DNA of 64,000 nucleotides from Haliclystus octoradiatus. Its lineage: Eukaryota; Cnidaria; Staurozoa; Stauromedusae; Haliclystidae. The stretch's first letter is position 1; the number at the start of each line of letters is the position of its first letter. Where the stretch lies: positions 434,001 through 498,000 of the forward strand of contig OU744451.1 of assembly GCA_916610825.1 (NCBI GenBank), read 5' to 3'. Positions 10,301 to 13,300 of this stretch are shown piece by piece. The translations under genes were made by a program, and so were the position numbers. Below the pieces are notes generated by a model that did not search any database, was not told the DNA's origin, and saw only the letters and a program-made list of their open reading frames with translations.

Positions 10301-13300
10301 TTATTATTATTATTATTATTATTATTATTATTATTATTATTATTATTATTATTATTATTATTATTATTATTATTATTATTATTATTATTATTATTATTAT
10401 TATTATTATTATTATTATTATTATTATTATTATTATTATTATTATTATTATTATTATTATTATTATTATTATTATTATTATTATTATTATTATTATTATT
10501 ATTATTATTATTATTATTATTATTATTATTATTATTATTATTATTATTATTATTATTATTATTATTATTATTATTATTATTATTATTATTATTATTATTA
10601 TTATTATTATTATTATTATTATTATTATTATTATTATTATTATTATTATTATTATTATTATTATTATTATTATTATTATTATTATTATTATTATTATTAT
10701 TATTATTATTATTATTATTATTAATAATAATAATGGAGTCAAAGACTACGCATTCATTTTCTGTAACTTAAAGTTTCTCGCTTTATGCGATCATCAGACA
10801 GATACTATGGAAATGTATAGAATAGTATCTGTCTGATGATCGCATAAAGCGAGAAACTTTAAGTTACAGAAAATGAATGCGTAGTCTTTGACTCCATTAT
10901 TATTATTATTCACGCTCTGTCAAATGACATCGAGCACTATATCAACTGCTGTTAGATACCATATCATCATTATTATTATTACATTATATTATTATTATTA
11001 TTATTATTATTATTATTATAACTATTATTATTATTATTATTATTAATAATAATAATGGTGATAGATCAAAGAAAACACATTCTTTACTGTAACTCCAAGT
11101 TTCACGCTACTGCGATCATCAGACAGTTTTTTATTCTATGAAAAATGTATACATACATGATGGTTTTAACTCCTATTTCAGACTATACGTGAATGCTGCG
11201 CTATTGTTAATTATAGTGTTATTGTTTAAATACAATGGTGTAAGTTTTTCTTTTGAAAATAGATGATAAAATAAATAAAATTGTTTCCTATTACATCAGT
11301 TGGTTGATTATTATTATGTTTTTGTTTCTTTAAAATTAGCTAAATAGAATTTGTTTTCGTGACGACATTTAGAAATTAGTTCGGATTTTCGATTTAATAG
11401 TTTTTCTTTTGAGCATATAATGTAATATTTTTCCAATAAACATAAATGACACTTTTTTGAAATGTTGCTATATGGCTTAGCATTGGCGATGGGTGACCAT
11501 TTGACTGTATACTCGCTGTTGTTGTCTTTCAGCTCCCAAATATATTTTGATAGCTGTGTGCTAGTGCTATATTTTCTGTGTTTAAACGTTGACTTGTGTT
11601 GTGTATAGCGCACTTTAAATGTATCCTCTGTTAAACCGATGTAGCACTTTCCCTCTTCGTCTTCTGGAGTGGTGACTTTTGCCTGGTAAATGATTCCCTT
11701 CATTTGGCATCGATTATCAAATGGACAGGATCTTTTGTTTCTGCAATTGCAAGGCGTGGCATCGGTTGTGTTGTTATTTTCGCTATTTATTATTTTGTTA
11801 TTGTGACTTTTCAGAATTGTGTCCATATTATTAGAGCAGGACACAATTTATATATTATAATATGTAAATATACTAATTTCTAAATGTCGTCACGAAAACA
11901 AATTCTATTTAGCTAATTTTAAAGAAACAAAAACATAATAATAGGCCTAATCAACCAACTGATGTAATAGGAAACAATTTTATTTATTTTATCATCTATT
12001 TTCAAAAGAAAAACTTACACCATTGTATTTAAACAATAACATCATAATTAACAATAGCGCAGCATTCACGTATAGTCTGAAATAGGAGTTAAAACCATCA
12101 TGTATGTATACATTTTTCATAGAATAAAAAACTGTCTGATGATCGCAGTAGCGTGAAACTTGGAGTTACAGTAAAGAATGTGTTTTCTTTGATCTATCAC
12201 CATTATTATTATTACTATTTACCGCTCTGCTAAATGTTGACATTGAGCACTATTTTGTCTGCTATTAGATAAACCTATACTTATTATATTATTATTATTA
12301 TTATTATTATTATTATTATTATTATCATTATTATTATTATTATTATTATTATTATTATTATTATTATTATTATTATTATTATTATTATTATTATTATTAT
12401 TATTATTATTATTATTATTATTATTATTATTATTATTATTATTATTATTATTATTATTATTATTATTATTATTATTATTATTATTATTATTATTATTATT
12501 ATTATTATTATTATTATTATTATTATATTATTATTATTATTATTATTATTATTATTATTATTATTATTATTATTATTATTATTATTATTATTATTATTAT
12601 TATTATTATTATTATTATTATTATTATTTTTGAGACAAATGACAGCGATAAAAGAGACATAATTTAGCAACGTTTCGTTATCTTCTTAACAACATCGTCA
12701 GGCGAGTGAGTGATATTGAAAATTTCATAAAATATATAGAGAAAACTAATTAACATAATTCTAATAGAGTGTTAAATTCACAGACATCGATACGGAAGAC
12801 TGTCAGTGATCAAACAAAGAGCCGGGATTTAACAGAGTCTAATTGCGTGTTGAGTGTAGGCTTGATCTGCCGAATCGCAAGCATTTCATGAATGAGGCAA
12901 TCAAAACGGTTCTTACATTTTTTAATAACTCGAAAGTTTTGATGACAATCGCGGACGGTAATACCATGTGAATGGCGAAGATGTGATCCAATGGCCGATC
13001 CAGTATGTCCGTCAATGCGTTGATGTAAGTGTTGGCAAGTGAAGCCAACATAACTTGCATCACACAAGTCACATTGAAAACAATAAACAACGCATTGACG
13101 AGACAAGAGCGGTGGCTTTGGCTCACGTAATCGCAAATCATCTACAATTTTCCTAGTGTTGAAAACCGGTCTGATAATTTGGCCGATATTACCACTAAGA
13201 TTAGATAGCTGCTTTTTAAGATATGGCCTATTCTGTTGTTCAATATATGTCATCCTTAAAACACTTAATTGAAATTAGAAAGTTACAGTATGAAAAAGTT

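Follow-up and report, generated by a model that had tools for sequence, protein, structure and literature searches.

The window, the whole stretch of 64,000 nucleotides of Haliclystus octoradiatus DNA analysed here, holds three neighbouring elements, named A1, A2 and B, each with a pair of hammerhead motifs in inverted orientation and all embedded in TTA repeats. Its further open reading frames (ORFs) include a long one of an LTR-type retroelement (2675-6736), two of the LINE-type endonuclease-reverse transcriptase (36860-40057 and 46582-49776) and one of a rhodopsin-type receptor (57142-58071).

Inverted hammerhead pairs in three Penelope-like elements

A1 is a palindrome (10722-10908) of two 87-nt arms, 100% complementary, which meet at a 13-nt junction (10809-10821). 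One hammerhead lies in each arm, at 10759-10803 on the minus strand and at 10827-10871 on the plus strand (53.1 bits each), and a tail follows the right arm only (10910-10988, plus strand). In A2 the longer arm (11041-11847, minus strand) is the 3' end of a Penelope-like element (PLE), including the end of its ORF, and has no tail, whereas the shorter arm (11872-12217, plus strand) is tailed. The shorter arm is identical to the inverted longer arm at 337 of 346 positions (287 nt matching at 97% and 72 nt at 100%), and its tail (12216-12282, plus strand; end placed by eye) resembles the A1 tail when both are aligned. The hammerheads of A2 are located at 11085-11128 (minus strand) and 12130-12173 (plus strand), with 58.7 bits each. 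The ORF fragment in the longer arm (11314-11847, minus strand, 177 aa) contains the motif GKCYIG, and going by this motif only, we take the fragment to be the end of a GIY-YIG endonuclease; a Pfam search with the fragment gave no match.

B contains an ORF of 703 aa (13220-15331, plus strand) with a PLE reverse transcriptase domain (RVT_1, E 4e-10). The final 581 nt of B recur in inverted orientation upstream of this ORF (12640-13220, minus strand). A third inverted pair, overlooked by the first-pass annotation, flanks the ORF; its hammerheads have the core CTGACGA and are found in the inverted copy at 12663-12707 (minus strand) and downstream at 15434-15478 (plus strand). The covariance model described below scores them at just 12.0 bits (E 0.65) and 12.2 bits (E 0.57), respectively. 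Relatives of the B ORF bear the GIY-YIG domain PF01541, and the named ones among the 120 listed are corals. The suspected PLE origin of the hammerheads is supported. Judged from sequence, the elements appear to have both the reverse transcriptase ORF with GIY-YIG domain of PLEs, through RVT_1 in the B ORF and PF01541 in its relatives, and pseudo-LTRs in tandem or inverted arrangement, to which a tail may be attached.

All four hammerheads named in A1 and A2 by the first-pass annotation were recovered. The pattern CTGATGAN{3,30}GAAAC has four matches in the window, while 100 shuffles gave a mean of 0.45 and a maximum of 3, none reaching four; genome-wide (261.9 Mb in 33 contigs) there are 8065 matches versus 754 for the reversed pattern. 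A covariance model trained on 15 hammerheads that belong to other subfamilies within the same genome detects all four, with E 3.4e-14 for the A2 pair and 1.3e-12 for the A1 pair. The proposed check against Rfam failed, with no hammerhead family at the gathering score in the whole window nor at E<=10 in 9500-13500, and the folds of three single motifs were matched or exceeded in stability by 37, 85 and 35 of 200 shuffles. The conserved core of type I hammerheads (CUGANGA ... GAAA) and the GUH triplet are present in six motifs of the window; the predicted cut site is placed 3' of GUH, which we take to be the position for type I. The arrangement in two inverted pairs holds for A1 and A2, but an even layout at 1.3 kb does not: the first pair spans ~0.11 kb and the second ~1.1 kb, with a gap of ~0.2 kb. 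Four independent sequences were rejected as a description, since the members of a pair are copies in an inverted duplication; hence there are two independent sequences.

As described in the first-pass annotation, stem I is TCTGT/ACAGA in one pair and ACTGT/ACAGT in the other, which had been taken to indicate selection on the fold. Such selection is supported by the covariation of other subfamilies, but not by this example, as the outermost stem I pair that had been cited is paired in only 11 of 31 distinct stem combinations from the examined loci (p=0.70). In the same set, under a shuffle that takes no account of relatedness, three pairs covary: stem I pairs 1 (p=0.0002) and 3 (p=0.0014), each paired in 28 of 31 combinations, and one stem III pair, paired in 26 of 27 (p=0.0002). 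The alignment of the 15 model sequences has a covariation score of 0.363 versus a shuffle mean of 0.209, and 23 cells changed on both sides versus a mean of 9.9, neither value being reached in 500 shuffles; further pair types were not unusual in this alignment (155 of 500 shuffles). Stem III is invariant there, and the first stem II pair is unpaired in 12 of the 15 sequences. Most hammerheads of this genome have a stem III of 3-4 bp with a loop of 1-3 nt, and B represents a loopless form. Overall, covariation supports the three predicted helices of a type I hammerhead.

Decayed hammerheads are also present in the window, one near-complete at 42184-42227 (minus strand, 39.8 bits in the covariance model) and one with an insert in stem II at 63096-63149 (minus strand, 28.5 bits). 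The former terminates a minisatellite (42198-43325) of 34 copies of a 33-nt unit, which is itself a decayed PLE hammerhead core (CTGTTGA ... GAATC). Elsewhere in the genome, among the matches listed, a stretch of 0.7 kb (C1:567489-568150) carries five hammerhead cores on the same strand, some of them 106 bp apart, possibly a tandem hammerhead satellite.

Folded as RNA, the A1 palindrome is predicted to form one single hairpin (-144.6 kcal/mol), so that the ribozymes of this copy probably cannot act in their own transcript. A match of the hairpin to mir-2511 (10770-10861; 45.5 bits, below the Rfam gathering score of 100) was rejected as a by-product of a perfect hairpin; inverted PLE ends could pass for microRNA precursors.

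Head-to-head palindromes across the genome

Facing pairs on opposite strands, which had been called less usual, abound in this genome: facing cores 5-35 nt apart (GATCATCAGN{5,35}CTGATGATC) occur at 268 places and the reversed control at none. PLE terminal repeats in inverted orientation are also reported in the part of PMC3846280 available to us. With a narrower pattern for A1 arms that is blind to the tail, 27 palindromes were found (control 0), and exactly one arm carries the tail in each of the 27; from a set of 35 palindromes, two that were members of other subfamilies were left out of the A1 tail scoring. A tail-to-tail arrangement of A1 arms gave no matches. The flanks differ between copies and 31 distinct junctions are found among 33 A1 palindromes, which indicates separate insertions; three of the 30 A1 loci L009-L038 (L023, L037 and L038) have damaged cores and were excluded from the 33. 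In the tandem copy L049, the A1 tail sits between the hammerhead and the ORF start. The 3' end of this copy (L050) has the order hammerhead-tail-(ATT)n, and its inverted arm (L051) is without tail.

Target duplications of 15-19 bp were observed at six loci (L043, L045, L054, L059, L063 and L068) in a survey of 52 loci, 50 of which have an arm pair (L048 and L064 gave none). Most of the other surveyed loci have simple-repeat flanks, in which a duplication cannot be judged, and duplications >10 were absent at L032, L033, L046 and L066, whose flanks are complex and non-repetitive. At L048 (C1:33201351-33202150), an A1 palindrome, the start of the untailed arm falls within the hammerhead, immediately 5' of the predicted cut, and adjoins a TA repeat, an unusual start for reverse transcription.

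Six of the 33 A1 palindromes lack filler at the junction. The 21 junctions with longer filler, whose boundaries were set by hand, contain arm-derived stretches with a sum of 148, versus a shuffle mean of 115.7 and a maximum of 131 in 1000 shuffles; a stretch copied from the arms reaches p<0.05 in 8 of the 21 fillers. Such templated filler is reminiscent of polymerase-theta end joining.

Inverted arms could in principle arise by self-priming, in which one cDNA or antisense transcript forms a fold-back and serves as its own template. For the Penelope elements of Adineta, Arkhipova's group suggested that self-priming takes place on an antisense template, and read the palindromes at inverted junctions as its sign (PMC3846280, in the portion available), and private variants common to both arms of a palindrome, e.g. 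in L029 and L035, would be in line with it. A fold-back copy, however, would carry the tail too, and one arm is without tail in 27 of 27 palindromes. In A2 it is the shorter arm that has the tail, which is impossible for a fold-back copy, and the copy-specific fillers are left unexplained. We hence regard self-priming as an improbable origin of the palindromes studied here.

Arm ends upstream of the ribozyme and at the predicted cut

The 54 arms of the 27 A1 palindromes have preferred ends. Counted beyond the common core of A1 arms, 30 arms end at +5, 8 at +6, 4 at +9 and 12 elsewhere; the +5 and +6 ends (38/54) are 11-12 nt upstream of the ribozyme core. Full-length copies (L039-L042 and L049) extend past these ends, and the positions +5 to +9 may mark the 5' end of the RNA. 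The run-off ends of A2-type arms are spread, at 13-17 nt in 6 of 7 arms. Arms of other subfamilies end 10-17 nt from the core, with a wider spread in A2, on the weak evidence of a survey of 49 of the 268 places (those listed, with one duplicate collapsed) for which references were set by eye from the same data and J and K mostly gathered unassigned arms.

Full-length A1 copies read TTTTTCATTAATAG in this region; among 100 of 368 matches listed, full-length A2 copies read TTTTTCATAGAATA and D copies TTTTCATTTAATAC. The A in these three sequences is the end of the +9 A1 arms, of the D pair and of the right arm of the L031 pair, and the sequence around it presumably resembles an initiator. As the TATATAT of A1 is merely 12-16 nt upstream, we do not claim a promoter at the full-length ends. 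Nor do we claim that junctions of the +9 class contain an additional C copied opposite the RNA cap, an idea that rests on three junctions (L012, L015 and C5:2815371).

Further palindromes, from four subfamilies, have ends at the predicted scissile bond or a few bases off. A search with a core that halts 5 nt before this bond gave 23 palindromes of other subfamilies (control 0). Nine of them (L052-L060) have the junction CTTTAC[A/T]GTAAAG in common; their flanks differ, and they are hence separate insertions, in two subfamilies. Two cDNA ends with ACTGT, pairing over five bases with one mismatch, can give this junction, which could also result from one end at the cut and another trimmed by 3 nt, or from a later deletion at AC/GT microhomology. 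Among the 28 arms of the other 14 palindromes, 7 end strictly at the cut (P=0.00027, for a uniform null over 21 positions, with null and tested positions chosen by us). Seven more are indistinguishable from the cut, with one or two next bases matching, 10 stop 2-3 nt before it, 1 stops 5 before it and 3 extend further.

Six palindromes were found with an A1 cut-site pattern. Both ends are strictly at the cut in C4:25231628, while C2:17876639 and C5:13825115 have one end strictly at the cut and the other indistinguishable from it. One end is indistinguishable from the cut and the other extends further in C5:25424134, and both sides extend past the cut in C1:16819274 and C8:9248507. Among 100 of 319 matches listed, both ends of C1:7398374 and one end of C1:25658035 stop strictly at the cut. 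The A1 pattern without the cut requirement gave three palindromes, namely C4:25231628, C7:23640930 (one end at the cut, the other 1 nt short) and C8:9248504 (beyond the cut). The A1 excess at the cut is weak on its own, with 4 of 13 breaks (P=0.019) or, by element, 3 of 12 (P=0.072), the 13 breaks being taken from 32 rows after rows of other subfamilies, point mutants and indel variants had been removed by eye. Of 18 cut-type loci, 16 have a full single tail, L056 a partial one and L061 none.

Both types of arm end adjoin the ribozyme, and their accumulation could reflect reverse transcriptase falling off at RNA structure rather than ends of the RNA, a reading that would suit the 10 arms, out of 28, whose ends fall 2-3 nt before the cut. 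A block at stem I would precede the 3' strand of this stem, yet these 5 nt are copied in the cut-site arms, and the upstream ends lie beyond the entire ribozyme; fall-off is thus an unlikely explanation. In our reading, the excess of ends at the predicted cut would instead be caused by ribozyme cleavage. Less probable still is that the palindromes are copies of a mobile or duplicated unit, or that their centres were rearranged after insertion: local duplication does exist (near-identical neighbours L037 and L038; a common junction at C1:2774639/2775007) and one junction is common to nine palindromes, but 31/33 A1 junctions are distinct, the flanks of L052-L060 differ, and rearrangement of the centre predicts scattered deletions, not common end points.

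Proposed insertion mechanism and relation to known elements

The arms with their one-sided tail, the preferred ends, the differing junctions, the duplications at some loci and the cut-site excess are brought together in the following proposal, by which a facing pair would quite probably represent one PLE insertion event, with head-to-head copies of the ribozyme-bearing end. The element RNA would have the order hammerhead, (AUU)n and tail before the ORF. The PLE enzyme would make a staggered cut within AT-rich repeats, and both 3' ends would prime reverse transcription in this animal, starting in one case from the distal end of the tail and in the other from the (AUU)n that precedes it. A one-sided tail is the geometry expected under this scheme, with each strand of the staggered cut priming cDNA from its own start site. 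Synthesis of each cDNA would run until the template's 5' end is reached, and end joining would then presumably connect the two cDNAs head to head, in many cases with filler between them. From uncleaved RNA, the cDNA would end 11-15 nt upstream of the core and yield an outward-facing hammerhead pair as in A1; the A1 hammerheads of the window may be read as the remains of an uncleaved template. RNA cut by the hammerhead would give cDNA ending at the cut and a shorter palindrome without hammerhead cores, and RNA with an additional repeat unit would give arms that extend into the ORF, as in A2 and B.

Minimal hammerhead ribozymes in PLE pseudo-LTRs were reportedly described by Cervera and de la Pena in 2014 and by Lunse et al. 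in 2017. The hammerheads here agree with the minimal ones of PLE pseudo-LTRs, as presented in the part of PMC7761336 available to us, in the type I order, the conserved core, the very short helix III, the location in PLE terminal repeats and the dispersal in thousands; according to the same part most of those are without helix III nucleotides, whereas most here have a stem III of 3-4 bp. Retrozymes are likewise small, non-coding and hammerhead-bearing, but these non-autonomous elements have direct hammerhead repeats, on either side of a unit that yields a circular RNA, in the partial descriptions at hand. Since the pairs of the window are inverted, no monomer could be released between two hammerheads, and a retrozyme identity was rejected.

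The Penelope elements of Adineta vaga, in the accessible portion of PMC3846280, are similar in their inverted terminal repeats (pLTRs), one of which bears a tail, in the palindromes at their junctions, in their insertion into AT-rich simple repeats and in their target duplications. The duplications are 8-10 bp long there and 15-19 bp here; unlike in that account, the arms here often consist of the terminal repeat alone and the ends match ribozyme landmarks. For the PLE of Anolis, both strands were cleaved and extended in vitro with a preference for ATT, and two start sites were used, the interval between them being the tail (PMC11167929). This element, Poseidon PAc, resembles those described here in its ATT targets, both-strand extension, tail-interval start sites and a hammerhead near the ORF start (PMC11167929). 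Its ORF starts at stem II, while here hammerhead and tail precede the ORF, as in L049. Mutating the hammerhead left the insertion of PAc unchanged, and none of the reads had its end at the cut (PMC11167929); in contrast to this absence of any trace of hammerhead-cleaved template, some genomic insertions here end at the predicted cut.

That PLEs have hammerheads, inverted terminal repeats and a tail on one side only is already known (PMC7761336 and PMC3846280, in the parts available), and a 2020 review termed it a mystery what PLE hammerheads do in vivo. In the limited literature searched we found no account that uses head-to-head junctions to read out template 5' ends and ribozyme cleavage. 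The new part would be a possible footprint of ribozyme cleavage in the ends of insertions. We consider it an evenly balanced question whether the head-to-head insertions constitute a fossil map of template 5' ends, recording both the upstream start and the scissile bond, and with it cleavage in the germ line and the use of cleaved RNA as template. The genomic pattern gives a hint that ribozyme cutting occurs in the living animal. The junctions allow a test from DNA only, in which cut-site and upstream insertions are compared per subfamily between intact and broken ribozymes, and they bear on the origin of the inverted ends of Penelope elements, which may derive from two cDNAs rather than from self-priming.
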